Positions 38,326 through 58,613 of a DNA stretch of 64,000 nucleotides are shown in pieces (the stretch's first letter is position 1; each line of letters begins with the position of its first letter). The stretch is from Actinomycetota bacterium. Its GTDB lineage: Bacteria > Actinomycetota > Acidimicrobiia > Acidimicrobiales > JAJPHD01. The translations under genes and the position numbers were made by a program. The notes beneath the pieces are model-generated. The model was not told where the DNA came from. It was given only the letters and a program-made list of their open reading frames with translations, and ran no database searches. The stretch is taken from positions 124,001 to 188,000 of the forward strand of contig JAJPHD010000010.1 of NCBI GenBank assembly GCA_021325455.1, read 5' to 3'.

Positions 38326-38339
38326 GGGCCCATGGTCCT
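38326..38339. promoter_or_regulatory. DosR-like box 1a (doxX-xfp-ackA operon)
   Basis: On the minus strand the site reads GGACCATGGGCCC, matching the window's GGGACC-N3-GGCCC pattern. After 23 bases a TAGCTT hexamer (38297-38302, minus strand) could serve as -10, placing the transcript start about 33 bases before the doxX ATG. A second, perfectly palindromic box lies just upstream. Confidence 0.6.
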
Positions 38340-38347
38340 TCCATGCA

Positions 38348-38361
38348 GGGACCTAGGTCCC
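38348..38361. promoter_or_regulatory. DosR-like box 1b, perfect palindrome GGGACCTAGGTCCC
   Basis: GGGACCTAGGTCCC is a perfect 14-base palindrome and differs from the mycobacterial DosR core (GGGACT-NN-AGTCCC) at one base pair per arm. It lies nine bases upstream of box 1a, 91 bases from the doxX start. Paired sites of this kind fit cooperative binding by two regulator dimers. Confidence 0.65.
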
Positions 38362-38366
38362 GGGGA

Positions 38367-39221
38367 TCAACGGGGCAGCGGCGCTATGCGCCGGCCCGAG
38401 ACGGCCTCGGGGGTGATGCGCAACCACCGGTCCCGCGGCCCCGGGGCCCAGGGGACCAGCGGGAGCTGGCGGAGGCGCTCCGCCTCTGGTCCCAGGGAGT
38501 CGGTGATCTCCTCGGCGGGCCCCCTCACCACCACGCTCCATGCCCTCCGCTCCAGCCGCTCGACGGCATCGACCTCGAATGCCACCCACCAAAGCCGGGC
38601 ACTGGAGAGCTTGGCGCCCTCGGCGGTGCGGACCACGATGCTGGCATCGGGGGCCAGCGCGTAGTTGACCGGGAAGATGTCCGGTCGGGCGCTCTCGAAG
38701 CTGGTGCCCGCCACCACGGCCAGGCGACCCAGGTGCTCGGTGCCCAGGAGAGCCAGGCTCTCCTGGCGCCCCAGCTCCTCGAGCTGTGGCCCATGGGCAT
38801 CCTCACCCTCCTGCCGGTGATACGGCGAGGGGAGGCTGTGGAGCAACATCCTGGCCGCCTCCCGGGCGGAGAGCACGCCAACCTCCCTGCCTTCCCTGTC
38901 GGTCACCAGGAGATGGCGGATCCCGTGGTCCAGCATGGTCATCACGGCCTCCCCCAGGCTGGTCTCGGCTGAGGCCGCCACGGGGGCTTGGCTGGCGAAG
39001 GACCGGGCCGGTGTCTCTGGCGGCGCGCCTGCGGCCATGGCGATCACGAGGTCGCGCTCGGTGAGGACCCCGCCCCGGTCACCCACCAGGACCAGCGAAG
39101 CCTCGTCGCCGCGCATCAGGGCAGCAGCCTCGGCCAGGGACGCCTGGGCTGGAAGCCGCCGCGGAGCCCGCAGGTGCAGGACGCCAACAGGGCTACCGGG
39201 GTCCACGAGGCTGGAGACCAT
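38367..39221 (-). CDS. CBS-domain pair fused to a PNPOx-like flavin-binding domain
   Basis: A 284-residue fusion. Residues about 10-125 are two CBS motifs (ALMRGDEASLVLVGDRGGVLTERDLV and MTMLDHGIRHLLVTDREGREVGVLSAREA), which usually bind adenine nucleotides. Residues about 150-284 are a PNPOx barrel with LGRLAVVAGTSFESARPDIFPVNYAL, VRTAEGAKLSSA, WWVAFEVDA and ITPEAVSGRRIAP. Nucleotide sensing could thus gate a flavin domain. ATG follows a CATGGT hexamer by exactly six bases, with a box 23 bases further upstream, predicting a leaderless mRNA. Confidence 0.86.
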   Translation of the reverse strand: MVSSLVDPGSPVGVLHLRAPRRLPAQASLAEAAALMRGDEASLVLVGDRGGVLTERDLVIAMAAGAPPETPARSFASQAPVAASAETSLGEAVMTMLDHGIRHLLVTDREGREVGVLSAREAARMLLHSLPSPYHRQEGEDAHGPQLEELGRQESLALLGTEHLGRLAVVAGTSFESARPDIFPVNYALAPDASIVVRTAEGAKLSSARLWWVAFEVDAVERLERRAWSVVVRGPAEEITDSLGPEAERLRQLPLVPWAPGPRDRWLRITPEAVSGRRIAPLPR

Positions 39222-39256
39222 GGCCTCACCATGGTGGGCCGGCGCGCCGGTGCCTA

Positions 39257-39270
39257 GGGCCGGAAGTCCC
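39257..39270. promoter_or_regulatory. DosR-like box 2 (CBS-PNPOx fusion gene)
   Basis: Minus-strand sequence GGGACTTCCGGCCC, a near match to the mycobacterial DosR half-site followed by the GGCCC arm typical of this window. Twenty-three bases separate it from CATGGT (39228-39233), and six more from the ATG at 39221. The arrangement repeats at four other genes. Confidence 0.65.
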
Positions 39271-39285
39271 GACCCAGCAGCCGGC

Positions 39286-39945
39286 CTACAAGTCCCGGGA
39301 GGGGTGGGCCTGCCGCTCGGCCAGCCGGGCCGCGAAGGCGGCGGCCTCGGAGCGTCTTGTCATGCCCAGCTTGGCCAGCACGTTGGACATGTAGTTCTTC
39401 ACCGTCTTCTCGGCCAGGTACATTCTCTCGCCGATCTGGCGGTTCGTGAGACCCTCGGCCACGAGGTCCAGGATGCGGCGCTCCTGCTCGGAGAGCCGGG
39501 CCAGGCGGGGGTCCTCAGCCCGCCCCGAGCGCAGCCGGTCCAGCACCCTGGCCGTGAGCTTGGGGTCCAGGAGGGAGCCACCGGCGGCCACCTTGCGGAT
39601 GTCCTGCACCAGGTCCTGGCCCCGGATCTGCTTGAGCACGTAGCCCGAGGCCCCCGCCACGACCGAAGCCAGGAGGGCTTCGTCGTCGGCATACGAGGTG
39701 AGCATCAGGCAGGCCACCTCCGGGTAGGCCGAGCGGATGTCGCGGCACACCTCGATCCCGTCCCCGTCCGGGAGGCGCACGTCCAGCACCGCCACGTCGG
39801 GACGCAAGTGGGGGATGCGGTCCAGGGCCTCGGCCGCCGTGGCCGCCTCCCCCACCACCTGTATGTCCTCGGCCGCCCACAGCAGGTCCCGAATCCCCCG
39901 GCGCACCAGCTCGTGATCGTCCAGCAGGAAGACCCGCACCGTCAC
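39286..39945 (-). CDS. NarL/LuxR-family response regulator, DosR/DevR-like
   Basis: Receiver plus LuxR-type HTH regulator of 219 residues from the GTG at 39945 (225 from an ATG at 39963). It is strikingly similar to mycobacterial DosR: VFLLDDHELVRRGIRDLL, phospho-Asp in VAVLDVRLPDGDGIEVCRDI, ASGYVLKQIRG, and the recognition region EGLTNRQIGERMYLAEKTVKNYMSNVLAKLG. The Lys and Asn of TVKNY that contact DNA in DosR are kept. A CATGAT hexamer six bases before GTG 39945 favours that start and a leaderless mRNA. It is divergent from the DosS-like kinase and is the obvious candidate to bind the boxes. Confidence 0.92.
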   Translation of the reverse strand: MTVRVFLLDDHELVRRGIRDLLWAAEDIQVVGEAATAAEALDRIPHLRPDVAVLDVRLPDGDGIEVCRDIRSAYPEVACLMLTSYADDEALLASVVAGASGYVLKQIRGQDLVQDIRKVAAGGSLLDPKLTARVLDRLRSGRAEDPRLARLSEQERRILDLVAEGLTNRQIGERMYLAEKTVKNYMSNVLAKLGMTRRSEAAAFAARLAERQAHPSRDL

Positions 39946-39977
39946 ACCCCCATCATGGCTCATCTACCATCGCTGCC

Positions 39978-41117
39978 GTGCCGTACCACGCCATAGAGGA
40001 TCCCAAGCAACTGCAGGCCCTCCTGGACGCGGCACTTCTCGTGGAGTCGGACCTCGACCTTCCTGCCATCCTGCAGCACGTGCTGGGAGCGGCCACGTCC
40101 CTCACCGGCGCCCGCTACGGCGCCCTGGGCGTGCTCGACCGGTCCGGCCAGGGACTGGCGGACTTCCACACGATAGGAGCGGACCCCGGGTTCTGCCAGG
40201 GGCGCCTTCCCGAGGGAAAGGGGGTCCTCGGCCTCCTCATCACTGATCCCCGCCCGCTGCGGCTCGAGGAGCTCACCACCCACCCCCGTTCCGTCGGCTT
40301 CCCCCCGGGCCACCCGCCCATGCACAGCTTCCTCGGCGTACCCATCCGCGTCCGGGGCGAGGTGTTCGGCAACCTCTACCTGGCCGACAAGGAGGCAGGC
40401 GACCAGTTCACCCTGGCTGACGAGCAGCTGGTGATGAGCGTGGCCGTGGCCGCCGGCATGGCCATCCACAATGCTCGCCTGGTGGACCGCCTGGCCGAGC
40501 TGTCCCGCCTGGAGGACAGGGAACGGATAGCCAGGGACCTGCACGACACCGTGATCCAGCGCCTCTTCGCCACGGGGCTGCGCCTCCAAGGGCTCGCCGG
40601 CATGTTCCAGGTGCCCGAGGTGGCAAGAAGGGTGCAAATGGCCATAGACGACCTGGACGAGACCATCCGGGAGATACGCACCACCATCTTCGCTCTGTCC
40701 ACCTCGGGGGACAGCCTCCGGGGCCGGATCACGAGCGTGGTGGAGGAGGCGGCTGGTTCCCTCGGTTTCCGCCCTGAGGTCCATCTGGACGGGCCCCTCG
40801 ACTCCACGGTCCCTGGCCACGTCGGTGACCACCTGACGGCGGCATTGCGAGAGGCGCTGGCCAATGTGGGCCGCCACGCCAGGGCCCGCTCGGTCAAGGT
40901 CCTGGTGGCGGTGCGCGATGCCTCTGAGCTCGTACTGGAGGTGACAGACGATGGGCTGGGCATCTCCGACCAGGGAGAGAGGAAGGGCCTGGGCCTGGCC
41001 AACATGGCCAGCCGGGCCCGCTCCCTCGGCGGCACCATGGCGGTGGCCCCGGGAGATGGAGGCGGCACCGTGCTCACCTGGAGCGTCCCCTTGAACCGGG
41101 ACCGGGCAGAGGCCTAA
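39978..41117 (+). CDS. GAF-domain histidine kinase, DosS/DevS-like with a single GAF domain
   Basis: A 379-residue soluble kinase. One GAF domain (about residues 25-165) contains VGFPPGHPPMHSFLGVPIRV and FGNLYLADKEAG, the stretch that in DevS/DosT holds the haem-ligating histidine (recalled as H149/H147). The HisKA_3 segment is RERIARDLHDTVIQRLFATGL (His189), followed by an HATPase domain with TDDGLGI and GLGLANMASRA. Mycobacterial DevS/DosT have two GAF domains and about 575 residues; this one lacks the second. GTG start lies seven bases after TACCAT, again leaderless-like. Confidence 0.9.
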   Translation: MPYHAIEDPKQLQALLDAALLVESDLDLPAILQHVLGAATSLTGARYGALGVLDRSGQGLADFHTIGADPGFCQGRLPEGKGVLGLLITDPRPLRLEELTTHPRSVGFPPGHPPMHSFLGVPIRVRGEVFGNLYLADKEAGDQFTLADEQLVMSVAVAAGMAIHNARLVDRLAELSRLEDRERIARDLHDTVIQRLFATGLRLQGLAGMFQVPEVARRVQMAIDDLDETIREIRTTIFALSTSGDSLRGRITSVVEEAAGSLGFRPEVHLDGPLDSTVPGHVGDHLTAALREALANVGRHARARSVKVLVAVRDASELVLEVTDDGLGISDQGERKGLGLANMASRARSLGGTMAVAPGDGGGTVLTWSVPLNRDRAEA

Positions 41118-41181
41118 GCGACCACCAGCACCGGTCGGCGGGACGGGGGCATCGCCTCGCGACCCGGCCTGGGACCGGGGC

Positions 41182-41598
41182 TCACCGCGTGACCAGTACC
41201 GGGCAGTGCGACAGGTGGAGGACCTTGTGGCTCACGCTGCCCAGGACCAGGCCGGCCAGGTCAGAGTGGCCCCGGGTGCCCATGATGATCAAGGAAGAGC
41301 CTGACTCGTCGGCCTCGGCCACGATCTCCAGGGCGGCCCGCCCCACGAGCGCCCTGCGGCACGAGGCTGTGGCCTTGGCCCCGGCTGTCCGCAGCGCGCC
41401 TGCCACACCCTCCACCAGGCTCTGGGCGTCGTTCCAGTCCTCGGTGTCGTAGGGCCCCAGCCTGCCTCCGTAGGCCTCCTCCACGACGTGGACCACGCGC
41501 ACCTCGGACCCGGCCAGGAGAGCCAGCTCCCTGGCCACCTCCTGGGCCCGCTTGGCGTGCTCCGACCAATCCACGGCCAGCACGAGCTTCTCGTACAT
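41182..41598 (-). CDS. Universal stress protein (UspA family), single domain
   Basis: A 138-residue Usp protein: KLVLAVDWSEHAKRAQEVAREL at the start and the ATP-binding signature IIMGTRGHSDLAGLVLGSVSHKVL (G-2x-G-9x-G(S/T)) at the end, so nucleotide binding is expected. ATG at 41598 is preceded by a GAGGAGGAGGG tract. A box at 41668-41681 sits 70 bases upstream. Usp proteins are a hallmark of the mycobacterial DosR regulon. Confidence 0.92.
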   Translation of the reverse strand: MYEKLVLAVDWSEHAKRAQEVARELALLAGSEVRVVHVVEEAYGGRLGPYDTEDWNDAQSLVEGVAGALRTAGAKATASCRRALVGRAALEIVAEADESGSSLIIMGTRGHSDLAGLVLGSVSHKVLHLSHCPVLVTR

Positions 41599-41667
41599 CT
41601 CCCTCCTCCTCTCCAAGAGCCCGCAAGCAACTGCCGCCAGCTTCACCCCCGGGAGGGGGAGGCCCCA

Positions 41668-41681
41668 GGGCCTTTGGTCCC
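41668..41681. promoter_or_regulatory. DosR-like box 3 (usp 41182-41598)
   Basis: Minus-strand GGGACCAAAGGCCC, identical over 14 bases to the box before the cytochrome b6-like gene 17 kb away. A GAAGCT hexamer follows after 23 bases (41639-41644, minus strand), placing the start of transcription about 33 bases before the usp ATG. Confidence 0.65.
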
Positions 41682-41697
41682 TCGGAGGCATCGGGTC

Positions 41698-42144
41698 TCA
41701 CAGGGGGTGGGTCGAGACCCGGCGGCCCGTGACGGAATCCAGCTCGATGGCAACCAGGTACGGCCTCGTCCCTGCAGCCCAGGCCTGCAGCCCGGCCATC
41801 ACGGCAGGCATGCGGTCATAGACGACCGCTGACCGGCCCACGACAAGAACGCTCCAGCCGGTCCTTGTGGCCGGATCGACCTCGTCCACCTCGAAGCCCA
41901 GGACCTCCCCACGGAAGGCCGCTCCCAGCTTGGACCCCACTCCCGTGAAGAAGAGGATCCTTCCCTCGGCGACACGGTAGGCGACGGGAAGGGCAACAGG
42001 TCGGCCGCCCGTCGCCATCACCACCCGCCCTATCCGGGATTCGGCCAGGAGCCGGAGGCATGTCTCCCGCCCCAACGTCTCCAGCCCGTCCGGGCCGACC
42101 AGGTACCCGGTGCTTCCTCCCGGCGACGGCTCCCCTGGCTCCAC
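41698..42144 (-). CDS. PNPOx-like flavin-binding protein 3
   Basis: A 148-residue split-barrel protein with RIGRVVMATGGRPVALPVAYRV, FFTGVGSKLGAAF, LGFEVDEVDPATRTGWSVLVVG and LDSVTGRRV. It is a minimal single-domain member of the group. GTG start lies six bases after CATGAT (42151-42156, minus strand), with a box 24 bases further upstream; no Shine-Dalgarno sequence is evident, so a leaderless transcript is predicted. It shares its regulatory region with the divergent CBS gene. Confidence 0.83.
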   Translation of the reverse strand: MEPGEPSPGGSTGYLVGPDGLETLGRETCLRLLAESRIGRVVMATGGRPVALPVAYRVAEGRILFFTGVGSKLGAAFRGEVLGFEVDEVDPATRTGWSVLVVGRSAVVYDRMPAVMAGLQAWAAGTRPYLVAIELDSVTGRRVSTHPL

Positions 42145-42180
42145 ACGGCCATCATGGAACTGCCTCTGCCAAAGCGGCTA

Positions 42181-42195
42181 GGGCCCTTCGGCCCT
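42181..42195. promoter_or_regulatory. DosR-like box 4, shared by divergent PNPOx and CBS genes
   Basis: GGGCCCTTCGGCCCT is centred between two divergent genes. It is 24 bases from the CATGAT of the minus-strand gene and 22 bases from the CAAGGT of the plus-strand gene. Each hexamer is six bases from its start codon. One palindromic site could therefore drive two leaderless promoters symmetrically. Confidence 0.6.
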
Positions 42196-42229
42196 GGTCC
42201 CCCCTCGGGCCCGGAGGCAAGGTGGGCTC

Positions 42230-42724
42230 GTGACGGTGGACAAGGATGTGCTGGCTCAGGTAAGGACTCCCTTGGAGGAGGTCACCATGCGGGCCCTGGT
42301 CTCGGTGCCGCCAACCTGCGACCTTCAAGAGGCAGCTACCCGCATGAGGACCGCCTCGACATCCACTCTGGTGGTGGAGGGCACCCCCCCTGGCCTGGTC
42401 ACCGAGCGGGACCTGGCCCACGGGCTGGCCGAGGGCCTGGGCCCGAAGGCCCCCGTGGCCGCTGTGACCAGCCCCCACCCCATATGGGTCACCCCCACCA
42501 CGACCCTGGGAGAGGCAGCCGGCATCATGGTCCGCCACGGGGTCCGCCACATCGTGGTCATCAACCCGCTGGGCGAGCCCATCGGCGTCGTGTCCATGCG
42601 CGATATCCTCCCCGTCCTGCTGAGGCCCCTGGGGGTGACCGCTTCGGGGGGCTTGGGGAGCAGCCCTACCCCCCGGGATGACCCCTGCCTGGCCGGCCAG
42701 GCCCCGTTGCCCGAGCCTGACTGA
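42230..42724 (+). CDS. CBS-domain pair protein (Hrp1-like)
   Basis: A 164-residue protein with tandem CBS motifs: MRTASTSTLVVEGTPPGLVTERDLA and IMVRHGVRHIVVINPLGEPIGVVSMRDIL. The domain layout matches Hrp1 (Rv2626c), the hypoxic response protein of the mycobacterial DosR regulon. GTG start follows CAAGGT by six bases. A Gly/Pro-rich tail of about 30 residues ends the protein. It converges on the two-domain Usp gene. Confidence 0.87.
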   Translation: MTVDKDVLAQVRTPLEEVTMRALVSVPPTCDLQEAATRMRTASTSTLVVEGTPPGLVTERDLAHGLAEGLGPKAPVAAVTSPHPIWVTPTTTLGEAAGIMVRHGVRHIVVINPLGEPIGVVSMRDILPVLLRPLGVTASGGLGSSPTPRDDPCLAGQAPLPEPD

Positions 42725-42779
42725 GCGCGCAGGAACCCGGACGGCCCGGGCAGCCCTGCTGCACCCCGGTCTCACGGCA

Positions 42780-43640
42780 CTAGCTCCCGGTCGCCTGCGG
42801 CACGGCCAGGACGGGCACGCCGGCCAGGTGGAGGACCCTGTGCAGGGTGCTGCCGAGCACGAGGGAGCCGAGGTCGGAGCGACCCCTCGTGCCCATTGCT
42901 ATGAGGGCCGCCCCCCGAGCCGTCGCCTGGCCCACTATCTCCCGAGCGACCGTCCCCCTCTGGCAACGGTGAACGTCGCCCGTGGCCTTGGCTCCCCTCC
43001 TGTGCAGGTCGGCCACTGCACGTTTCACGATCCCCATGGCGTCCTCGAACAGCTCGAGGTCGTAGCCACCTCCCCTCACCACCTCGTACTCGGCGCAGTG
43101 AAGGACATGGACCTCCCCGTCCACGCTGCGAGCCAGCTGCCCGGCGGCATCCAGCGCACCTTCCGCCCCCTGGGAGCCGTCAGTGGCAAGCAGGATGCTG
43201 TGGAAGGAGATGGGGGCATCGTCCCGGTGGACCAGCAGCACCGGTAGGAAGCCGAGGTGGAGAACCTGGTGGCTGACGCTACCAAGGGTGGCCCCGGCCA
43301 GGTCCGAGAGCCCCCTGGTGCCCATGATGATCACAGAAGCCCGGAACCGCGCCGCCTCGTCCCGGATCTCGTTGGCCGTGTGCCCCCTCAGCGCGCACCG
43401 GCAGGAACCGGAAGCCTCGATGCCCGCCTCCCTGAGCTCGGCCACCGTCCTGTCCACGGCCTCCTTGGCCCAGGTGCGATCGCTCAGGTCGACGGGGCTG
43501 AGCTTCCTCCCGTAGCCCCGCTCCACCACCTGCAGCAGGCGAAGCTCGCTTCCCGCCGTGAGGGCCAGGGCCCGACCTGCTTCGAGGGCTCGCTGCGAAT
43601 GGGCTGACCCGTCCACAGCCATGAGGACCCTTTCGAACAC
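42780..43640 (-). CDS. Universal stress protein, tandem two-domain
   Basis: A 286-residue protein with two Usp domains. Domain 1 (VLMAVDGSAHSQRALEAG ... IIMGTRGLSDLAGATLGSVSHQVL) and domain 2 (ILLATDGSQGAEGALDAAGQ ... IAMGTRGRSDLGSLVLGSTLHRVL) each retain the ATP-binding signature. The tandem architecture is the same as mycobacterial Rv2005c/Rv2623. GTG start 18 bases after the preceding usp stop, implying a two-gene transcript from the box at 44157. Confidence 0.92.
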   Translation of the reverse strand: MFERVLMAVDGSAHSQRALEAGRALALTAGSELRLLQVVERGYGRKLSPVDLSDRTWAKEAVDRTVAELREAGIEASGSCRCALRGHTANEIRDEAARFRASVIIMGTRGLSDLAGATLGSVSHQVLHLGFLPVLLVHRDDAPISFHSILLATDGSQGAEGALDAAGQLARSVDGEVHVLHCAEYEVVRGGGYDLELFEDAMGIVKRAVADLHRRGAKATGDVHRCQRGTVAREIVGQATARGAALIAMGTRGRSDLGSLVLGSTLHRVLHLAGVPVLAVPQATGS

Positions 43641-43658
43641 GCCACCCCTCCGGCCCAG

Positions 43659-44078
43659 CTAGTGCACCACGAGCACTGGACAGGGAGCCAGCTGCACCAC
43701 CTTGTGGCTCACACTGCCCAGGAGCAAGCCCGCCAGGTTTCCGTGGCCTCGGCTGCCCATCACCACGAGGTCGGCGTTCATGTCAGCCACCTGCTCCAGC
43801 AGCGCCGCCGCCACGTATCCCGCGGCCGCCCGAGCGAGCACCGCCTCGGTACTGACGCCTTCGGCCTCGAGCCGCTGGGCCGCCTCGCCTACGAGAGCGT
43901 GGGGGCCGGGCAGATCCTCGTCCGGTACCAGCCCGGCCGCCCCACCGATCATCCCCACCTCCACCACATGGACGGCCCGGACCGACCCGCCGGACAACCG
44001 AGCCAGTCCGCCAGCTGCCTCGACGGCCCGTTTGGAGTAGTCCGACCCGTCTACCGCCACGAGGATCCTGTCGAACAT
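43659..44078 (-). CDS. Universal stress protein (UspA family), single domain
   Basis: A 139-residue Usp protein: RILVAVDGSDYSKRAVEAAGG and VVMGSRGHGNLAGLLLGSVSHKVVQ with a complete ATP-binding signature. ATG at 44078 follows AGGGCAGG. It is the first gene of a two-usp unit, with a box 79 bases upstream of the start. Confidence 0.92.
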   Translation of the reverse strand: MFDRILVAVDGSDYSKRAVEAAGGLARLSGGSVRAVHVVEVGMIGGAAGLVPDEDLPGPHALVGEAAQRLEAEGVSTEAVLARAAAGYVAAALLEQVADMNADLVVMGSRGHGNLAGLLLGSVSHKVVQLAPCPVLVVH

Positions 44079-44156
44079 GTTGCCCTGCCCTTTCTCCCGC
44101 TCGACCCGGCGAGCGGCGACAAGGGGAGCAAAACCCCACCACAGGTGGCCCAACAG

Positions 44157-44169
44157 GGGCAAAGGTCCC
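44157..44169. promoter_or_regulatory. DosR-like box 5 (usp-usp unit)
   Basis: Minus-strand GGGACCTTTGCCC, a slightly degenerate form (the second arm has GCCC instead of GGCCC). No good NANNNT hexamer lies at the expected 22-24 base spacing; TTTGCT is the nearest. It is therefore a weaker candidate than the others. Confidence 0.45.
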
Positions 44170-44189
44170 GAACCTGGCAGGCCCGGATC

Positions 44190-44204
44190 AGGACCTTCGG
44201 CCCT
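44190..44204. promoter_or_regulatory. DosR-like box 6 (PNPOx 44265-44702)
   Basis: AGGACCTTCGGCCCT on the plus strand. Exactly 22 bases downstream is CAAGGT (44227-44232), the same hexamer as at the CBS gene. The predicted transcript start is about 26 bases before the PNPOx ATG, leaving room for its CGGAGG ribosome site. Confidence 0.6.
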
Positions 44205-44264: not shown

Positions 44265-44702
44265 ATGGTCGTCGTGGATGGCATGGGCGAGCGGGAATGC
44301 CGGGACTTGCTCGCCAGCCAGAGGTTTGGCCGGCTCGCCGTGGTGAGAGAAGGGCGTCCCCAGGTCTTCCTGGTGAGCTACACCCTCGACCTCAGTGGGG
44401 CCGTCGTGTTCGAGGCCGACCGTCCCCAGGGGCTGGCCGGGGTGAGCAACCACCACGTGACCTTCGAGGTGGACCATGTCGAGCCGGACGGTGCCGGCTG
44501 GTGCGTCGTCGTCCAGGGGGTGGTCCACCAGACGAGTGCCACCTCGCTTCGTTTCGCCCCCGGGGCCAAGCGACCCCTGCGGGACGCTTACCTGATGCGC
44601 ATACATACGACCAAGCTGGCGGGCCGGCGGCTGACGGCCGAGGGGGCCTCTCCCGCGAAAGGATCGGCAGCATCAGCCAGCAGCCTTCTCTCGCCAGCCT
44701 GA
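44265..44702 (+). CDS. PNPOx-like protein 4, divergent cofactor site
   Basis: A 145-residue split-barrel protein with RFGRLAVVREGRPQVFLVSYTL, HHVTFEVDHVEPDGAGWCVVVQGVV and TKLAGRRLTA. The G-(S/T)-K-L segment present in the other four paralogues is replaced by DRPQGLAGV, so flavin binding may differ or be lost. ATG is preceded by CGGAGG. Downstream lies the sigma-factor gene in the same orientation with its own box. Confidence 0.8.
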   Translation: MVVVDGMGERECRDLLASQRFGRLAVVREGRPQVFLVSYTLDLSGAVVFEADRPQGLAGVSNHHVTFEVDHVEPDGAGWCVVVQGVVHQTSATSLRFAPGAKRPLRDAYLMRIHTTKLAGRRLTAEGASPAKGSAASASSLLSPA

Positions 44703-44756: not shown

Positions 44757-44771
44757 GGGACTTTCGGCCCT
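44757..44771. promoter_or_regulatory. DosR-like box 7 (sigma-factor gene)
   Basis: GGGACTTTCGGCCCT has the GGGACT arm of the mycobacterial box. A TAGCAT hexamer begins 22 bases downstream (44794-44799) and is followed after six bases by ATG 44806. It suggests that the regulator controls an alternative sigma factor directly. Confidence 0.65.
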
Positions 44772-44835
44772 GCCCGCCGATGTGGACCTCCTTTAGCATC
44801 CCGAGATGGAGTTCTCGCCGAGGAGGGGAGATCCG

Positions 44836-45783
44836 ATGAGCGGGACCGTTCCTGACGGCTGGGACGAGGAGCCAGAGCCCATGCCGGCCCCTCCGGCACC
44901 GGACTCACTGGGCCGCTACCTGGGCGAGATCGGTGGCCACCAGCTCCTGCGCCGTGACGAGGAGGCCAGGCTGAGCAGGGAGATCCAGCAGGGCTTGGCG
45001 GCCAGCGCTCAGCTGGCGGGCCGACGCCACCTGGGACGGTCCGCCCAGGCCCATCTCCGTCGGGAGATGCTGCGGGGAGAGGAGGCTCAGAGAAGGCTCG
45101 TCGTGGCCAACCTGAGGCTGGTCGTGTCGATCGCCAAGCGTTACCAGCACCACGGCTTGGATCTGGCCGACCTCATCCAGGAAGGGAACCTGGGGCTCAT
45201 GAGCGCTGCCAAGCGCTTCCACGGGGAGCTGGGGTTCAAGTTCTCCACCTACGCCACCTGGTGGATCCGGCGAGCCATCATCGGCGCCATCGCCGAGAGC
45301 GGCTCGACGATCCGCTTCCCCCGGCGCGCCCATGAGCAGGTGGCCACCCTGGGGAGAGCAGAGGAGCTCCTGAGGCACCGCCTGGGGCGCACTCCCTCTG
45401 TGGCGGAGCTGGCAGGAGAAGTGGGTATGGACCCCAGCCAGGTGACCACCACCTTGCGGTCCGACCGGCAGCTCACGTCCCTTTCCTCACCAGTGGGCGA
45501 CAATGGGGGGGAGCTGCAGGACTGGGTGGCCGATCCATCGGCCGGTCCCGACCTCGTCGCCGTCAGCCGGTCCGTCGCCAGCGAGGTACGCCGACTCCTG
45601 GCCTCCCTGCCCCCGCTCGAAGCGACCGTCATCACCCAGCGGTTCGGGCTCGACGGCGAGGAGCCCCGCACCCTGGCCGAGACGGCCAGCACCATCGGGG
45701 TCTCTACCGAGCGGGTCCGCCAGATCGAGGGCCGCGCCCTCAGCCGCCTCCGGCGGATCCCGGAGTGGAGGGGGGTGGCCTGA
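44836..45783 (+). CDS. RNA polymerase sigma-70 family factor (group 2, SigB/RpoS-like)
   Basis: A 315-residue factor with regions 1.2 (DSLGRYLGEIGGHQLLRRDEEARL), 2 (NLRLVVSIAKRY, DLIQEGNLGLMSAAKRF, KFSTYATWWIRRAI), 3 (GRTPSVAELAGEVGM) and 4 (RFGLDGEEPRTLAETASTIGVSTERVRQIE). All core motifs of primary-type sigmas are present; the long N-terminal region of the housekeeping sigma is absent. ATG 44836 follows AGGAGGGGAG. An upstream in-frame ATG (44806) fits a leaderless promoter, so two N-termini are possible. Box 7 precedes it. Confidence 0.92.
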   Translation: MSGTVPDGWDEEPEPMPAPPAPDSLGRYLGEIGGHQLLRRDEEARLSREIQQGLAASAQLAGRRHLGRSAQAHLRREMLRGEEAQRRLVVANLRLVVSIAKRYQHHGLDLADLIQEGNLGLMSAAKRFHGELGFKFSTYATWWIRRAIIGAIAESGSTIRFPRRAHEQVATLGRAEELLRHRLGRTPSVAELAGEVGMDPSQVTTTLRSDRQLTSLSSPVGDNGGELQDWVADPSAGPDLVAVSRSVASEVRRLLASLPPLEATVITQRFGLDGEEPRTLAETASTIGVSTERVRQIEGRALSRLRRIPEWRGVA

Positions 45784-45816
45784 GCCGCTGAGCCGGTGGC
45801 CGCCGGGAGGCGAGGC

Positions 45817-46328
45817 TCACCTCGGGGTCGGTCGCCTTCCTTCCGCCTGGCCGGGGGGCACGATCAGCACCGGGCAGGGGGAGTGATGAGCACAGGCCTG
45901 GCTCACGGACCCCAGCAGGAGGCCCGAGAAGCCACCCCGGCCGCGACTCCCACCACCAGCAGGTCCGCCCCCTCGGCCGCCTGGACGAGCGCCTTGGCGG
46001 GGTGGTCCTCGATCACCTGGGCCACTACCTGGGTATCGCCCGGCACCCTCTTCAGGATCCGGGCCAGCCGCTCCTTGGCCTCGAGGGCAGCGTCCTCGGC
46101 GAGGGTGGGTGGCGGTGGGGGGACCATGCCCGTGGGAGTGCCGTAGTAGTACTCGGGCACGTGCCAGGCCAGGACCGCATGGAGGGTCGCTCCCCGGTAC
46201 CTGGCCTCCTCGACCGCCATTTGGAGGGCTTGCAGCGAACCGGCCGAGCCGTCCACGCCCACCACTACACGTCCACGGCTCCCTCCCGGGGGCGCCTCAG
46301 CAGGTGGCTCATCTCGACCGGCGCTCAT
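45817..46328 (-). pseudogene. Universal stress protein gene interrupted by a one-base frameshift
   Basis: The reading frame from the ATG at 46328 encodes a Usp protein (VVVGVDGSAGSLQALQMAVEEA) but leaves the family frame at DLLVVG, ending early at 45903. Moving one base at about 45948-45951, in a GGG/CCC run, restores SRGRGGFSGLLLGSVSQACA and CPVLIVPP to a stop at 45817, the complete ATP-binding signature. A single base is therefore missing relative to an intact gene of about 170 codons. It is either a recent lesion or a homopolymer sequencing error. It has its own box and TAGGAT hexamer. Confidence 0.85.
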
Positions 46329-47307
46329 GACGGCATCCTAGGTCTCGAACCGGTCCCCCGATCAGGGCCGAAAGCCCCTTCTCCCCCATGGCGCCGGTGC
46401 CCCTGCCGACCGATGGGGCGGGCGCGGGAGTGGCCGGCGGTGCCCCCGGAGCAAACACTGCTTCCAGGGCGCAGTCCACCTTCCGGCGGTGCGCCAGCAC
46501 CCACGGCGCGGAACCAAGAGCGTCAGCCACACCCCACCAGGCCGCCCCCCCACGGCCGGGGTCCTTGAGCAGGCTGGTGGCCCGGTGGCAGAGGGTCCGG
46601 GGAGAGTACCGCAGGCCGGCAGTGAGCAGATGGTTGCAGGCCAGGCGCCGGTGGCGTCCCCATATGTCACGGCGCGGCGAAGGGTGGTGGCGCACCACGG
46701 CATCGGGTTCGTAGACCAGCTTCCAGCCCGCCCCGGCCAGGTCCAAGGCCACCAGCTCCTCCTCTCCTCCTATGCCGAGGCAGGGCTCGAAGCCGCCCAC
46801 AGCCAGGAAGGCCGATCGGCGCACCACCGCCCCACAGGCCAGGAACCCGGTCACCCCGCGTGGCCCGGCCGGGTTCGGGCGAAACCGCTCGTCGAGGACG
46901 CCTGTCCCCATCAGCTGCGAGACTGGGTCCAGGGTCTCCGCCCCACCGACCAGCACCTTGGCGGCGACCAGACCCAGCTCATCATCGCTGTCGAGGCGAT
47001 CGGCGGCAACGGTGAGAGCCCCTGGATCCCACCAGGAGTCATCGTCACAGAACGCCACATAGGGAGTGGCCGCGGCCCGGGCCCCGATGGTGCGGGCCCC
47101 GGCCCCCTCGTTGGAAGGAAGGGCCAGCACCCGGACAGCAGGGAACAGGCGGCCGACCTGCTCGGGTGAGCCGTCGGCGGAACGGTTGTCCACCACCACG
47201 ACCGGAGGTGACTCGGGCAACCGGAGCAGCCGCTCGAGGGTCTCACAGAGCTGGGAGACACGGTTGGCAGTGGCGATCACCACGGTCACCCGGTCGTTCG
47301 TCGGCAT
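46309..47307 (-). CDS. Glycosyltransferase family 2
   Basis: A 332-residue GT-A enzyme: VTVVIATANRVSQLCETLERLL, VVVVDNRSADGS, YVAFCDDDSWWDPGAL (DxD metal site) and GGFEPCLGIGGEEELVALDLAGAGW. These match rhamnosyl/galactosyl-transferase-like GT2 proteins. ATG at 47307 is preceded by AGGAGGT. It diverges from the carbamoyltransferase, sharing an AT-richer intergenic region, and probably belongs to the same glycan pathway. No membrane helices. Confidence 0.88.
   Translation of the reverse strand: MPTNDRVTVVIATANRVSQLCETLERLLRLPESPPVVVVDNRSADGSPEQVGRLFPAVRVLALPSNEGAGARTIGARAAATPYVAFCDDDSWWDPGALTVAADRLDSDDELGLVAAKVLVGGAETLDPVSQLMGTGVLDERFRPNPAGPRGVTGFLACGAVVRRSAFLAVGGFEPCLGIGGEEELVALDLAGAGWKLVYEPDAVVRHHPSPRRDIWGRHRRLACNHLLTAGLRYSPRTLCHRATSLLKDPGRGGAAWWGVADALGSAPWVLAHRRKVDCALEAVFAPGAPPATPAPAPSVGRGTGAMGEKGLSALIGGPVRDLGCRHERRSR
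46365..46378. promoter_or_regulatory. DosR-like box 8 (frameshifted usp)
   Basis: Minus-strand GGGGCTTTCGGCCC, followed after 24 bases by TAGGAT (46335-46340) and, six bases on, the ATG at 46328. It lies within the 3' end of the glycosyltransferase gene, which is read in the same direction. An intact promoter before a frameshifted gene argues that the lesion is recent or artefactual. Confidence 0.55.
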
Positions 47308-52903: not shown

Positions 52904-52919
52904 GGAAAGGCGAGCGCCG

Positions 52920-54143: not shown

Positions 54144-55552
54144 CTCCGCCGCCCGAGGGGATCCTGGTGCTCGGCGACTCCCTCCTCGACCGCGACGTCG
54201 AGGGCCACGCCGGGCGCTTGAGCCCCGACGCCCCGGTACCGGTCCTCGACGAGCAGGCCTGCTGGGCCCGGCCCGGGGGGGCGGCACTGACGGCCGCCCT
54301 CGCCGCCCTGGAGGGCGACCCGGTCACCTTGGTGACCTCCATCGGGGATGATGAGGCTGGAGAGGAGCTGCGTGCCCTTCTCGACGGGTTCGGGATCGAG
54401 CTGATCAGCGTGACGGGGGGGCCGACACCAGAGAAGATCCGCTTCCTGGCGGACGGCCGACCGCTGCTCCGGGTGGACCGGGGATCTCCGCCCACCCCGG
54501 TCGGGGCCCTCCCCCCGGACGCCGTCAGCGCCGTCCATGGCGCCGGCGTGGTCGTCGTCTCCGACTACGGCCGCGGCCTCACCGGCAACGCCACCGTGCG
54601 CTCGGCGCTGCAGCATCGCCTTCGGCCCACGGTCTGGGACCCACATCCCCGCGGCTGCGAGCCGGTCCCCGGGGCGACGCTGGTGACGCCGAACCTGGCC
54701 GAGCTCCGGACGGCTTTCCTGAGCCCGGCCCCCTCACCGCCCGGGGCCGGGAGCGGTCGACCTCACGTAGCCCTGCGGGCCGTAGCCGAGGCCACGGCTG
54801 CCGCCCGGCAGGCCTGGAGGGTCCAAGCCGTGGCCACGACTCTGGGCCCAGGCGGTGCCCTGCTCGTGGCCGGGGACGGGCCGCCGCTCGCAGTGCCGGC
54901 CGAGGCAGTCACTGGTGGCGACCCATGCGGGGCCGGAGACCGCTTCGTGGCTGCCGTTGCCTCCTTCCTGCTGCGTGGGGGCCTCCTCAGCGAGGCGGTC
55001 ACCAGCGCCGTGGCGTCCGCCAGCCGGTTCGTTGCCGCTGGGGGGGCCGGCGCCCTGGGAGCGCACAACCGATCCCGGGAGGCCTCCGGGCCCGACCGGG
55101 TCGGGGCCGAGGATCTCGCCCGGCGGGTCCGGCACCGAGGAGGGACCGTCGTGGTGGCTGGCGGCTGCTTCGACCTGCTCCATGCCGGCCACGTCTCGCT
55201 CCTGGAGTCGGCCCGCAGGCTCGGGGACTGCCTCATCGTTGCCATCAACTCCGACGATTCCGTTCGCCGGCTCAAGGGCGAGGGGCGCCCGGTCGTGACC
55301 CAGTCCGACCGGTCCGCCCTGCTCGCCGCCCTGGCCTGCGTCGACGCCGTCGTGGTGTTCGACGACGACTCTCCCATCGAGCTGCTCAAGCGGATCCGGC
55401 CCGACGTCTTCGTCAAGGGGGGGGACTACTCCTCAGGGCCGCTGCCCGAGGCGGCGGTGCTCGCTGCCTGGGGCGGCCAAGCCGTCACCGTCCCCTACCT
55501 GTCCGGGCGATCGACCTCGGGGTTGCTGCGACTGGCCTCGGGGGTCCCGTGA
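54140..55552 (+). CDS. hldE: Bifunctional heptose 7-phosphate kinase / heptose 1-phosphate adenylyltransferase
   Basis: A 470-residue fusion in the standard HldE order. The N-terminal PfkB-type kinase has VLGDSLLDRDVEGHAGRLSPDAPVPV and GGDPCGAGDRFVAAVASFLL (catalytic Asp about 268). The C-terminal nucleotidyltransferase has VVAGGCFDLLHAGHVSLLESARRLGD (HxGH) and GRPVVTQSDRSALLAAL. Together they make ADP-D-glycero-beta-D-manno-heptose from heptose 7-phosphate with GmhB. No HldD epimerase is present in the window, so the D,D-heptose form may be used. Confidence 0.93.
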   Translation: MTPPPEGILVLGDSLLDRDVEGHAGRLSPDAPVPVLDEQACWARPGGAALTAALAALEGDPVTLVTSIGDDEAGEELRALLDGFGIELISVTGGPTPEKIRFLADGRPLLRVDRGSPPTPVGALPPDAVSAVHGAGVVVVSDYGRGLTGNATVRSALQHRLRPTVWDPHPRGCEPVPGATLVTPNLAELRTAFLSPAPSPPGAGSGRPHVALRAVAEATAAARQAWRVQAVATTLGPGGALLVAGDGPPLAVPAEAVTGGDPCGAGDRFVAAVASFLLRGGLLSEAVTSAVASASRFVAAGGAGALGAHNRSREASGPDRVGAEDLARRVRHRGGTVVVAGGCFDLLHAGHVSLLESARRLGDCLIVAINSDDSVRRLKGEGRPVVTQSDRSALLAALACVDAVVVFDDDSPIELLKRIRPDVFVKGGDYSSGPLPEAAVLAAWGGQAVTVPYLSGRSTSGLLRLASGVP

Positions 55553-56523
55553 ACCAGCCCGGCCGTCCAACCCTGGTCATGCTGCGGGCCCTCGGCCTGG
55601 GTGACACCCTCACCGGGCTCCCGGCCATGAGAGCCCTCGCCGACGCCTTCCCCGACCATCACCGGATCGTCGCCGCCCCGTCGGCCTTCGCAGGGCTGCT
55701 CACCCGGGAAGGAGGGGCCGACGAGGTCGTGGACCACCATGGCCTGGCTCCGCTCGACCCGGCCCTCGGCGGCCCCGACGTCGCCGTCGACCTCCACGGG
55801 CGGGGGCCAGGCAGCCAGCCGCTGCTGCTCGCCCTCCGGCCTCGCCGGCTGATCGCCTTCTCCCATCCCGACCTGCCCGACACGGCAGGTGGCCCACAGT
55901 GGCTGCCCGGGGAGCACGAGGTCAAGCGCTGGTGCCGCCTGCTGGATGAGAGCGGCATCCCGGCCGACCCGCAGCGACTTGCCATCAAGGCCCCCCCAGG
56001 CCCCCCAGCCCGGGGGGCAGCCGGGGCCACGGTCATCCACCCCGGGGCAGGCAGCGCCGCCCGCCGATGGCCGCCGGAGCGCTTCGCCGCCATCGCCTCC
56101 AGCGAGGCAGGCCGCGGCCGGCCGGTGGTGATCACGGGATCCAGCCGGGAGCGCCCGCTGGCCGAGATCGTAGCCATGGCCGCGGGCCTCGGCGACGGGT
56201 GCGTCCTCGCCGGCACGGACCTCGATGAGCTGGCCCGGATCGTGGCCGCCGCCGGGCGCGTGGTGTGCGGGGACACGGGTGTCGCCCATTTGGCCACGGC
56301 GCTCGGTACGCCGTCGGTGGTCCTCTTCGGGCCGATCCCGCCCGCCGAGTGGGGCCCGCCACCGGACCGGAGGCAGCACATCGCCCTTTGGGCAGGCCGA
56401 CGTGGTGACCCGCACGGCGAGTCGGTCGACCCCGGCCTTCTCGCCATCACCGTCGCCGAGGTGAAGGACGCGATCGACCGTCTGCCCACGCCCACCCCCG
56501 TGCTGGAAGGAGAGCCACGATGA
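55549..56523 (+). CDS. Glycosyltransferase family 9 (heptosyltransferase-like) B
   Basis: A 324-residue GT9 protein: VMLRALGLGDTLTGLPAMRALADAF, VAVDLHGRGP, VIHPGAGSAARRWPPERFAAIA and VCGDTGVAHLATALGTPSVVLFGPIPPAEWG. These are the classical heptosyltransferase motifs. GTG start overlaps the hldE stop (GTGA). A second GT9 suggests at least two heptose (or related) residues in the glycan. Confidence 0.9.
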   Translation: MNQPGRPTLVMLRALGLGDTLTGLPAMRALADAFPDHHRIVAAPSAFAGLLTREGGADEVVDHHGLAPLDPALGGPDVAVDLHGRGPGSQPLLLALRPRRLIAFSHPDLPDTAGGPQWLPGEHEVKRWCRLLDESGIPADPQRLAIKAPPGPPARGAAGATVIHPGAGSAARRWPPERFAAIASSEAGRGRPVVITGSSRERPLAEIVAMAAGLGDGCVLAGTDLDELARIVAAAGRVVCGDTGVAHLATALGTPSVVLFGPIPPAEWGPPPDRRQHIALWAGRRGDPHGESVDPGLLAITVAEVKDAIDRLPTPTPVLEGEPR

Positions 56524-57164
56524 CCGTCGCCGCACCGAGGAGAGGGGCCCTTGCCCATCTCGACGACCTGCGGGCCGCCCTGGAGTCGTTCGAAGAGGAG
56601 GTCCCCACCATCGAACGCTGGGGTGCAGAGCTCGCCCGGCGCCTCAGTGCCGGGGGGCGGCTCCTGACCCTCGGCAACGGCGGCAGCGCCGCCCACGCCG
56701 GGCACTTGGCCAGCGAGCTCGTGGGCCGCTACTGTGCCGACCGCGAGCCGTTCAGCGCCATCGCCTTGCCCGTCGACGGGGCGGCCTTGACCGCTCTCAC
56801 CAATGACTTCGGGCCCGAGGACATGTTCGCCCGCCAGGTCCGGGCCCACGCCAGGCCAGGGGACGTGATCGTGGCCTTCTCCACCTCCGGGCGGAGCCCG
56901 AACGTGCTCGCCGCGGTCCGCGCCGCTCGGCACCTGGGGGCGGTGGTGTGGTCCCTCACCGGGAGCAGCCCCAATCCCCTGGCCGAGGCCAGCACCGATT
57001 CCCTGGCGGTGGAGGCCGCCGCCACCCCCACCGTGCAGGAGGTGCACCAGGTGGCGTTGCATCTCCTCTGCCAGGCCTTCGACGACTCCCTCACTCCTCA
57101 GCGAGACACGAAGCCATCAAGCCGGCGCCCCCTCGCCCGGCACCATGCCCTTCGAACCGGGTGA
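56520..57164 (+). CDS. gmhA: Sedoheptulose-7-phosphate isomerase
   Basis: A 214-residue SIS-domain enzyme: LLTLGNGGSAAHAGHLASELVGRY near residue 50, LTNDFGPEDMFARQVRAHARPGDVIVAFSTSGRSPNVLAAV near residue 100 and VQEVHQVALHLLCQAFDD. This matches GmhA, which makes D-glycero-D-manno-heptose 7-phosphate, the substrate of HldE. ATG overlaps the GT9 stop. It completes the ADP-heptose route in this operon. Confidence 0.92.
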   Translation: MTVAAPRRGALAHLDDLRAALESFEEEVPTIERWGAELARRLSAGGRLLTLGNGGSAAHAGHLASELVGRYCADREPFSAIALPVDGAALTALTNDFGPEDMFARQVRAHARPGDVIVAFSTSGRSPNVLAAVRAARHLGAVVWSLTGSSPNPLAEASTDSLAVEAAATPTVQEVHQVALHLLCQAFDDSLTPQRDTKPSSRRPLARHHALRTG

Positions 57165-57267
57165 TCATCGGCACGCTCCGGGCCGCGGAGGCGGCCGGCC
57201 TGGCCGGTTCAGCCGGCGGGACCCGGGGTATCACCAGTGGACGCCGATGACGCCCGGGAGGAGAACG

Positions 57268-57807
57268 ATGGCCCAAGATGTCCTGCAACTGCTGAAGGAA
57301 GACCACCAGGCCGCTGAGAAGCTGCTGGCCCGTTTCGAGGAGGTGGCCCCCGCCGACCGGGGTGACTACTTCTGCGAGGTGGTCCACACCCTGGTCGGCC
57401 ACGAGGTGGCGGAGGAGCTCGTCGTCTACCCCGATCTCCGCCAGTCCTCCGGCCAGGGTGACCAGGTGGCCGACGCCCGTCTCAGGGAGCAGGCGGAGGC
57501 CGAGGAGGTCCTGGCCCGCCTCGAGCACGTCGACCCCGTCAGTGCCGAGTTCGCCGAGACCTTCCGGCAGCTGCGCCAGGAGGTCCTAGCCCATGCTCAG
57601 GCCGAGGAGGCCACCGTCTTCCCCCTCCTGGAGGGAGCGACCGACGCTGAGCAACGCCAGGCCCTGGGCGAGCACTACCAGAAGGCCAAGGAGTCAGCAC
57701 CGACCCATCCTCATCCCCATTCACCCGACACACCGCCGGGCAACCGGGTCCTGGGACCGATCGCCGCCCTCTTCGACCGTACCCGGGACGCCGTGCAGGG
57801 GGCGTAG
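57268..57807 (+). CDS. Hemerythrin HHE-domain protein
   Basis: A 179-residue four-helix protein with LLKEDHQAAEKLLARFEEV, EVVHTLVGHEVAEELVVYPDL and EVLAHAQAEEATVFPLLEG, giving the H...HxxxE...HxxxE di-iron ligand pattern. The last helix contributes QALGEHYQKAKE. Such proteins bind O2, NO or help repair Fe-S clusters. ATG is preceded by GGGAGGAG. Pro/His-rich C-terminal segment. Next to DUF2249 and nar genes, a nitrosative or oxygen-sensing role is inferred. Confidence 0.9.
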   Translation: MAQDVLQLLKEDHQAAEKLLARFEEVAPADRGDYFCEVVHTLVGHEVAEELVVYPDLRQSSGQGDQVADARLREQAEAEEVLARLEHVDPVSAEFAETFRQLRQEVLAHAQAEEATVFPLLEGATDAEQRQALGEHYQKAKESAPTHPHPHSPDTPPGNRVLGPIAALFDRTRDAVQGA

Positions 57808-57913
57808 GAGAGGTCGCTCCCCGATGGCCTGGACCGCCTCTTCGGCGGGTGGCGACAGGGGCCTCTACCCGATGACCTGACCTGCACCCCGTCGGGTCCC
57901 TTACCATGGGAGC

Positions 57914-58189
57914 GTGGCACGGGATGCTGGGGAATGGCAGAACGAGGCTCACCACGACCACGGGGAGGAGGTCCTCGACGTGCGGGACCTCTCCCCCGCC
58001 CATCGCCACGAGGTCGTCCTGGCCCGGGTGGCGTCCCTCGGCTACGGCCGGTCCCTCGTGATCCTGAGCGACCACGAGCCCAAGCCGCTGCGGAGGTGGT
58101 TGGAGGACCTGCTCCCCGGCAGCTACGAGTGGACCTACCTGGCCAAGGGTCCCGATCTGTGGCAGGTGCGGGTCCGCCGTGGGCAGTGA
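57914..58189 (+). CDS. DUF2249 protein
   Basis: A 91-residue protein of the DUF2249 group: EEVLDVRDLSPAHRHEVVLARVASLGYGRSLVILSDHEPKPLRRWLEDLLPGSYEWTYLAKGPDLW-type layout. DUF2249 genes cluster with denitrification, hemerythrin and cupin genes; function is unestablished. GTG start lies six bases after TACCAT with no ribosome site, a leaderless arrangement, but no box is present. It overlaps the cupin by 11 bases. Confidence 0.85.
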   Translation: MARDAGEWQNEAHHDHGEEVLDVRDLSPAHRHEVVLARVASLGYGRSLVILSDHEPKPLRRWLEDLLPGSYEWTYLAKGPDLWQVRVRRGQ

Positions 58190-58571
58190 GCCTGACCATG
58201 GGAGCCAGGCCCGCCCCTTGACCGCGCCAACCCCCGCCGTCGTGGAGCTGGGCGCCAGGTGGCGCCTGGCATCAGGGAGCGGGGTGGTCTGGTCACTGGC
58301 CCAGGGGTCCGATCTGAACGTCAACCTCGTGCGCCTGGAGGCCGGCGCCGGGATCGGGGAGCACGTTAACCCCGAGGTGGAGGTGGTCCTCGCCGTGCTG
58401 GAGGGAGAGGGGGAGGTGGCCATAGACGGTGCCGTGCACCCCCTCGGCCCGGCCACCCTGGCCTTTATCCCCCGGGGGTGCAGGCGCAGCATCCGCGCCG
58501 GCCACCACCCCCTCGCCTACCTCAGCATCCACCGGCGCCGCCAGGGCCTGCGGGTAAGGCCCCCGGCCTGA
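58179..58571 (+). CDS. Cupin-domain protein
   Basis: A 130-residue single-domain cupin. Metal-site motif 1 is only partly conserved (EHVNPEVEVVLAVLEGEGEVAI: His and Glu present), and motif 2 is PATLAFIPRGCRRSIRAG with one expected His missing. It may therefore have no metal or an altered metal site. Overlap with DUF2249 (GTG start) implies joint expression. Such small cupins frequently accompany DUF2249 and hemerythrin genes. Confidence 0.8.
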   Translation: MGSEPDHGSQARPLTAPTPAVVELGARWRLASGSGVVWSLAQGSDLNVNLVRLEAGAGIGEHVNPEVEVVLAVLEGEGEVAIDGAVHPLGPATLAFIPRGCRRSIRAGHHPLAYLSIHRRRQGLRVRPPA

Positions 58572-58598
58572 CCCCCCCCCAAGCACCCCGCCCCTCTC

Positions 58599-58613
58599 GG
58601 GACCAAAGGCCCT
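58599..58613. promoter_or_regulatory. DosR-like box 9 (cytochrome b6-like gene)
   Basis: GGGACCAAAGGCCCT, matching box 3 over 14 bases. CAACCT (58637-58642) follows after 23 bases, so the transcript would begin about 24 bases before the small leader ORF at 58673. It lies 12-17 kb from the main island, which suggests the regulon extends to respiratory genes. Confidence 0.65.

Follow-up and report, generated by a model that had tools for sequence, protein, structure and literature searches.

A predicted DosR/OsdR-type regulon with fixed promoter geometry in an Acidimicrobiia-like bacterium

A 64,000-nucleotide (nt) stretch of DNA (the window; positions 124001 to 188000 of C22 in a 2.95-Mb genome, 72% guanine plus cytosine [GC]) very probably carries a regulon of the DosR/OsdR type, in which a palindromic box repeated before many genes is the predicted binding site of the NarL-family response regulator encoded at 39286-39963. 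A preliminary description of this DNA had reported a recurrent DosR-like box with fixed promoter geometry and had proposed a dormancy-type regulon. The recurrent box and its geometry were confirmed. The dormancy-type regulon was supported by computation, which covered the box with its spacing and conservation, its tendency to occur in the same genomes as dosR, and the relationship of the regulator and its neighboring kinase to known proteins. The host was placed as Acidimicrobiia-like because a 621-residue part of its RpoB was 84% (364 residues) and 88% (254 residues) identical to that of one Acidimicrobiaceae metagenome-assembled genome, 74% identical to that of a second, 84% and 74% identical to those of two relatives from the same order, and 66% identical to that of Streptomyces.

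All ten sites of the preliminary description were found, each with a 14-bp core at its place once the site at 44157 had been corrected to 44156-44169. They are given below with the regulator, the kinase, and the scores of a composite model (box plus spacer plus -10 element) trained on 52 promoters of relatives; USP stands for universal stress protein.

39286-39963, minus strand: DosR/OsdR-type response regulator, NarL family; best PDB match DevR 3c3w (E 2.9e-73)
39978-41117, plus strand: DosS-like histidine kinase with one GAF domain; 379 residues; GAF, HisKA_3 and HATPase_c
38326-38339, minus strand: predicted DosR box, promoter proximal, 5' of the DoxX-like gene; -10 TAGCTT; composite score 22.4
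38348-38361, minus strand: second box of the tandem, 22 bp upstream of the 38326 box; palindrome GGGACCTAGGTCCC; fixed-distance -10 missing; 15.0
39257-39270, minus strand: predicted DosR box 5' of the CBS-PNPOx gene; -10 CATGGT; predicted transcript start at ATG 39221 (leaderless); 27.8
41668-41681, minus strand: predicted DosR box 5' of a USP gene; exact GGGACBWWVGGCCCT; -10 GAAGCT; 26.4
42181-42194, no strand assigned: palindromic box common to the divergent PNPOx (minus) and CBS (plus) genes; -10 on either side; 24.6 and 28.5
44156-44169, minus strand: predicted DosR box 5' of the USP gene at 43659-44162; ANNNT missing at the fixed distance; 19.2
44190-44203, plus strand: predicted DosR box 5' of the PNPOx gene at 44265-44702; -10 CAAGGT; 27.1
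44757-44770, plus strand: predicted DosR box 5' of the sigma-70 factor gene; exact GGGACBWWVGGCCCT; -10 TAGCAT; 33.1
46365-46378, minus strand: predicted DosR box 5' of the USP gene at 45903-46328, with the caveat that it falls within the upstream glycosyltransferase gene, at the 3' end; -10 TAGGAT; 23.3
58599-58612, plus strand: predicted DosR box 5' of the cytochrome b6-like gene; exact GGGACBWWVGGCCCT; -10 CAACCT; 28.9

The fixed spacing was recovered in 9 of the 11 box/gene pairs of the window, in which the A of ANNNT follows the box center by 31 or 32 nt and the hexamers are the same as reported earlier (TAGCTT, CATGGT, GAAGCT, CATGAT, CAAGGT twice, TAGCAT, TAGGAT, and CAACCT). The two pairs lacking it are 38348, the upstream member of the tandem, and 44157. 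This spacing went well beyond chance: ANNNT stood at +31 to +33 in 11 of 14 orientations in the genome itself (same-width control windows gave a mean of 1.2 and a maximum of 4; p = 4e-10) and in 52 of 99 orientations in relatives (control mean, 7.9; maximum, 13; p = 8e-31), p values which, like that of the matrix below, assume independent rows, even though a single box serves both rows of a divergent pair and the relatives are linked by descent. These counts replaced those made with a slightly different box center, in which the summed offsets +31 to +33 held 12 of 15 rows in the genome itself and 38 of 67 in relatives.

The box was also compared with the presence of dosR across 58 relatives, of which 27 carried an orthologue (52 to 74% identity, over 200 bits). 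The exact box was present in 21 of the 27 genomes with dosR (54 sites) versus 3 of the 31 without it (5 sites; p = 1.2e-7), and a reversed-pattern control gave 7 and 6 sites, respectively. We further used a matrix of the 26 published Streptomyces coelicolor OsdR sites (PMC5069765, Table 1), taking as intergenic whatever lay outside the calls of a purpose-written, simple codon-usage gene finder. In 20 dosR neighborhoods of relatives, matches of at least 10 to this OsdR matrix numbered 25 in 65,501 intergenic positions versus 25 in 320,545 coding positions. That the boxes are true activator sites, although of another NarL-family regulator than the neighboring DosR, is very unlikely. The genome does hold 26 matches to DosR at E <= 0.001, DosR included, and three relatives without a close dosR keep exact boxes. 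However, the closest paralogues are just 40 to 41% identical, and the four helices readable in the five examined of the 25 other matches (SDNTVKNH, STKTVETH, GEETVKTH, and SPQTVRTH) all differ from that of DosR, none having KTVKNY; in addition, box presence tracks dosR across the 58 relatives, and the boxes of the window surround dosR.

The regulator resembles DosR in the residues that matter for this assignment. In DosR, the receiver aspartate is Asp54, and K179 and N183 belong to the recognition helix. Another residue of that helix is K182 (PMC5999986). In the window protein, D61 aligns with DevR D54, and the recognition helix has the same sequence, AEKTVKNY, as in Mycobacterium tuberculosis DevR; in an alignment of this protein with those of 16 relatives, D61, A184-E-K-T, and K189-N-Y were invariant, and the V of the helix was kept in at least 90%. 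The closest match, the receiver aspartate, and the recognition-helix residues are thus all those of a DosR/OsdR regulator. Two copies of dosR were seen in one relative (G003; C1 and C30, stretches L106 and L125), 69% and 67% identical to the window DosR, with boxes near each. The preliminary description had suggested a DosR of altered specificity with a new recognition sequence, an idea that these data do not support and that we consider highly improbable. The commonest half-site in the promoters of relatives is indeed GGGACC (C, 56%; T, 17%) and not GGGACT, but there is no change in the contact helix, the matrix built from Streptomyces sites performs well on the window, and the published OsdR table includes AGGGACCTTCGGCCCC and CGGGACCTTCGGCCCT (PMC5069765). 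Since the helix is identical, such sites stand in the OsdR table, and the stringent mycobacterial consensus is GGGACTTNNGNCCCT (as quoted in PMC6448022), GGGACC...GGCCCT is best taken as an ordinary DosR/OsdR box.

Several scans measured the boxes against the background of the genome. With the OsdR matrix, nine of the ten boxes fell within the best 16 sites of the window, the other seven being sites absent from the preliminary description; the 44157 box was absent among the 60 matrix matches listed. Matches of at least 9 numbered 7 in the 1,390 intergenic positions of the box-bearing island versus 11 in the 36,472 intergenic positions elsewhere (p = 2e-6), and 76 in 425,823 positions of coding DNA. 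The loose motif first proposed, GGGACC-N3-GGCCC, amounted to noise across the genome when up to two mismatches were allowed (7,893 matches versus 11,999 for the reversed pattern). Because this motif alone was insignificant, significance was tested with other material. Exact GGGACBWWVGGCCCT occurs five times in the genome, three of them inside the window; with one mismatch it occurs at 28 places versus 21 for the reversed control, and 12 of the 28, counting the palindromic box twice and including two in coding DNA, lie in the window, which makes up 2.2% of the genome. The composite model was run on 504 kb of the genome, made up of the window, background stretches picked by place only and totaling 400 kb, and two 20-kb stretches picked for the boxes that they hold. 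It gave 18 matches of at least 18 (16 of them distinct, as L101 and L184 overlap) versus none for the reversed control, with one of the 18 in coding DNA (L103) and another, 46371, in the 3' end of a gene; at lower cutoffs the counts were 23 versus 1 (at least 16) and 42 versus 18 (at least 12). Ten of the 11 box/gene pairs of the window scored at least 18, the exception being 38348 at 15.0. Chance palindromes in a genome of 72% GC can be dismissed almost entirely as the source of the boxes. In favor of chance, the loose motif is unenriched, the one-mismatch pattern gives 28 places versus 21 for its control, and matrix matches occur in coding DNA too. Against it, the model that combines box and spacing is clearly set apart from its reversed controls, relatives show the spacing again, and the exact box tracks dosR.

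The kinase gene is divergent from dosR, with the two start codons 14 bp apart, and the five best PDB matches of its product are the GAF domains of DevS and DosT. Its H112 and Y134, which are 22 residues apart, align with the His/Tyr pair of DevS (residues 149 and 171). In the DosS/DosT kinases, the proximal His and distal Tyr of the GAF domain act in heme binding, and by its sequence the window kinase probably carries heme. DosS has two GAF domains before HisKA_3; with one GAF domain and not two, the window kinase was classed as DosS-like and not as DosS. Among the relatives, a heme-GAF-like kinase of 367 to 404 residues was found in 10 dosR stretches (with the motif HPVM in L120). In seven others (L114, L118, L121, L123, L210, L211, and L215), the kinase match near dosR lacked the heme-GAF motif, and the remaining stretches had no kinase call. 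Those seven kinases look PAS-like by eye, as though the regulator had been kept but given another sensor. For named Actinomycetia, the best kinase match was 502 to 721 residues long in 22 of 24 loci, a size that fits two GAF domains, as judged from length only. Between 39940 and 39990, a TACCAT ends 7 nt before the GTG of the kinase gene and suggests a leaderless kinase mRNA.

The A of TANNNT usually lies at -11, which would place the start of transcription at +42 and center the box at about -42.5. In the mycobacterial system, the proximal DosR site overlaps the -35 region, and one such promoter has been likened to class II (PMC5360333); this overlap is also reported in PMC3029386. As the DosR sites printed there overlap -35, the geometry of the window promoters is that known for DosR. 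Spacing was then counted per group in 77 named dosR loci that had been grouped by hand. Rows with a -10 element numbered 15 of 35 in other Actinomycetota (control mean, 2.6), 5 of 12 in Mycobacteriales (1.1), 1 of 4 in the Pseudonocardiales type (0.3), 1 of 2 in unclassified loci (0.1), and 8 of 27 in the Streptomyces type (1.6), where the signal is weak, one control window having reached 9. The two Acidimicrobiaceae loci among the 77 gave zero box rows. Chloroflexi dosR loci were rejected as a source of boxes, with four box rows in 17 loci and a -10 element in one of the four (control mean, 0.4). Five Chloroflexi stretches (L264, L270, L276, L280, and L285) hold regulators 48 to 54% identical to the window DosR, with HPPM-motif kinases nearby and few box-like sites in what was seen of them.

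The same spacing would bring the transcript start onto a possible start codon in a number of genes. An in-frame ATG or GTG lay 10 to 12 nt past the A of the -10 element in 19 of 113 rows, a count from which the USP gene starting at 46328 was left out because its box overlaps a gene. In relatives, such codons occurred seven times at 42 nt and eight times at 43 nt, versus 0 to 5 times at the other distances between 25 and 109 nt. The leaderless candidates in the window are 5 of the 11 pairs: those of the CBS-PNPOx gene, the PNPOx gene at 42144, the CBS gene, the sigma factor gene, and the USP gene at 46328. For the 42181 box, the predicted starts are GTG 42144 and GTG 42230, which would make two divergent genes leaderless. 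For the sigma factor gene, the predicted start is ATG 44806, and for the USP gene, +43 is ATG 46328; each would be leaderless if so started, the gene finder having chosen 44836 and 46265, respectively. In M. tuberculosis, leaderless mRNAs are common, making up 26% among genes for which a primary start is known, and they increase when the cells are starved (PMC3898074). We predict leaderless mRNAs for these DosR targets.

The genes predicted to be under the control of the boxes are as follows.

37646-38257, minus strand: DoxX-like membrane protein, predicted target
36632-37141 and 37138-37515, minus strand: two PNPOx-family genes, probable operon members
34182-36599, minus strand: phosphoketolase xfp, probable operon member
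33073-34185, minus strand: acetate kinase ackA, probable operon member
38367-39221, minus strand: CBS plus PNPOx protein, predicted target
41182-41598, minus strand: USP, predicted target
41698-42144, minus strand: PNPOx-family protein, predicted target
42230-42724, plus strand: CBS-pair protein, predicted target
43659-44162, minus strand: USP, possible target (box without -10)
44265-44702, plus strand: PNPOx-family protein, predicted target
44806-45783, plus strand: sigma-70 family factor (RpoD/SigB-like), predicted target
45903-46328, minus strand: USP, predicted target
58714-60630, plus strand: cytochrome b6-like protein, predicted target

From DoxX to ackA, five codirectional genes follow the tandem box pair. 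Between 33000 and 38400 there was no promoter-like site, no terminator-like site on the gene strand, and one, at chance level, on the opposite strand. Because the genes share one direction and their strand lacks a terminator-like site, an operon is likely, and the 38326 box probably drives DoxX, both PNPOx genes, xfp, and ackA. The ackA family profile matched only from position 84, so that its N terminus is either divergent or the start is misplaced. The xfp gene was found within 3 of 20 dosR stretches of relatives (L113, L116, and L122). Outside the window, composite matches were found 5' of two Hsp20 genes, the first scoring 26.3 and the second, whose -10 element is poorer, 21.4, and also 5' of the genes for a PNPOx protein and an unknown membrane protein. 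About 0.67 kb separates the second Hsp20 gene from a strong site upstream of it, C28:63955, and no confident gene lies in this interval. The core targets USP and Hsp20 (the hspX class) are thus found behind boxes. The gene for an unknown membrane protein at L184:10743-11324, which has a strong box 5' of it, is adjoined by a fused HAD hydrolase-hemerythrin gene.

In relatives, the 52 genes behind a box with a correctly placed -10 element included 10 PNPOx genes, three multicopper oxidases, and two USPs, with single cases of CydA, PPDK, POR, and a protein of the ATP-grasp/succinyl-CoA-ligase type (among the best 25 of 73 families). The 38 genes beside a box without a -10 element included four USPs, three response regulators, and two multicopper oxidases, and PNPOx was not among the best 25 of the 79 families in that set. 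Because the set without a -10 element also has USPs, response regulators, and multicopper oxidases, target classes are weaker evidence than spacing. Multicopper oxidase or cupredoxin genes recur beside the box (for example, L106:10469-11836), possibly as a copper electron-transfer branch.

A number of results weigh against a DosR/OsdR-type regulon. Six relatives with dosR lack the exact box, and 6 of the 20 dosR neighborhoods lack an intergenic OsdR-matrix match of at least 10. Conversely, five exact boxes occur in three relatives without dosR (G008, G033, and G053), in which a profile search also failed to detect a close dosR. In the stretches concerned (L199, L200, L216, L217, and L218), the box comes with a well-placed -10 element in G033; dosR may be absent from the assembly, or another regulator may use the box. 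The 20-kb stretches of the 400-kb background gave three matches of at least 18 (L101 twice and L103), one of them coding. For the 12 cytochrome b orthologues scanned, an upstream composite score of at least 20, a cutoff chosen after the scores had been seen, was reached in 4 of 7 genomes with dosR versus 0 of 5 without it (one-sided p = 0.07), which is suggestive only. Most promoters show one recognizable box: of the 147 examined, no more than 22 had a second, at 22 to 23 bp in six of them, whereas some mycobacterial targets need two or more boxes for full induction (PMC3029386). The kinase has no second GAF domain. Finally, no box was found near dosR or the kinase gene in the window, where no position from 39700 to 40300 scored above -2.7. 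Among 25 stretches of relatives, three had a box with a -10 element (score of at least 14) in the 400 nt 5' of dosR; L106 and L125 have a matrix match upstream of dosR without a good -10 element. Judged by sequence, this system lacks a box through which dosR would regulate itself, and such autoregulation is not a defining trait of the regulator family.

The closest known systems are OsdK/OsdR of S. coelicolor and DosS/DosT-DosR (DevS-DevR) of mycobacteria. OsdK/OsdR is alike in regulator type and in its 16-bp palindrome; its predicted targets, many of them clustered around the regulator, likewise include USP, PNPOx, sigma factor, and PPDK genes, and OsdR also binds mycobacterial DevR targets (PMC5069765). 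Unlike the window dosR, osdR has a box at -81. The window system further differs from OsdK/OsdR by its single-GAF kinase, by phosphoketolase-acetate kinase and cytochrome b as likely targets, and, as examined on the window side only, by predicted leaderless starts. A CBS protein is a mycobacterial DosR target. Classical targets of DosR/OsdR regulons also include nitroreductase, ferredoxin, tgs1, and nitrate genes. With the mycobacterial system, the window shares the type of regulator, the recognition helix, and the heme-GAF residues, as well as the box overlapping -35 (PMC5360333 and PMC3029386) and the USP and small heat shock genes (PMC5069765). It differs in having one GAF domain, mostly single boxes, no dosR box, and several PNPOx genes. 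With its one GAF domain, its lack of a dosR box, its possible phosphoketolase operon, and its several PNPOx targets, the window system is a distinct member of this family and not a new kind.

From these observations we infer DNA binding, phosphotransfer, heme, an oxygen response, an operon, and transcript starts as parts of the following mechanism. Falling oxygen, or the binding of NO or CO, would activate the single-GAF DosS-like kinase (39978-41117), which would phosphorylate DosR at D61. DosR would then bind the palindrome (consensus in relatives, GGGACcTTCGGCCCT) centered at -42.5, in place of a -35 element and beside the ANNNT -10 element, and recruit RNA polymerase in a manner resembling that of class II activators. 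This would switch on the USPs, the CBS and PNPOx-family proteins, the sigma factor, cytochrome b, and, elsewhere in the genome, Hsp20; DoxX would be switched on as well, together with phosphoketolase and acetate kinase for fermentative ATP if these genes form one operon. At 5 of the 11 pairs, transcription would begin, given the spacing, right at a potential start codon, and the mRNAs would be leaderless. Acetyl phosphate serves as a phosphodonor for OsdR in vitro (PMC5069765). A bolder and doubtful extension is that of an old actinobacterial switch with a compact one-GAF heme kinase and spacing-driven leaderless mRNAs, in which acetyl phosphate from phosphoketolase closes a positive loop that replaces dosR autoregulation.

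Within the limited collection of literature searched, no paper was found that pairs DosR with Acidimicrobi*, and as far as that search shows, a DosR/OsdR regulon is new to this clade. The finding extends the tuberculosis-type dormancy switch and the geometry of its promoters to an Acidimicrobiia-like order and suggests an old actinobacterial low-oxygen program that was inherited by pathogens. With 27 dosR-bearing relatives, each another family, core and variable targets can be compared without work on pathogens.

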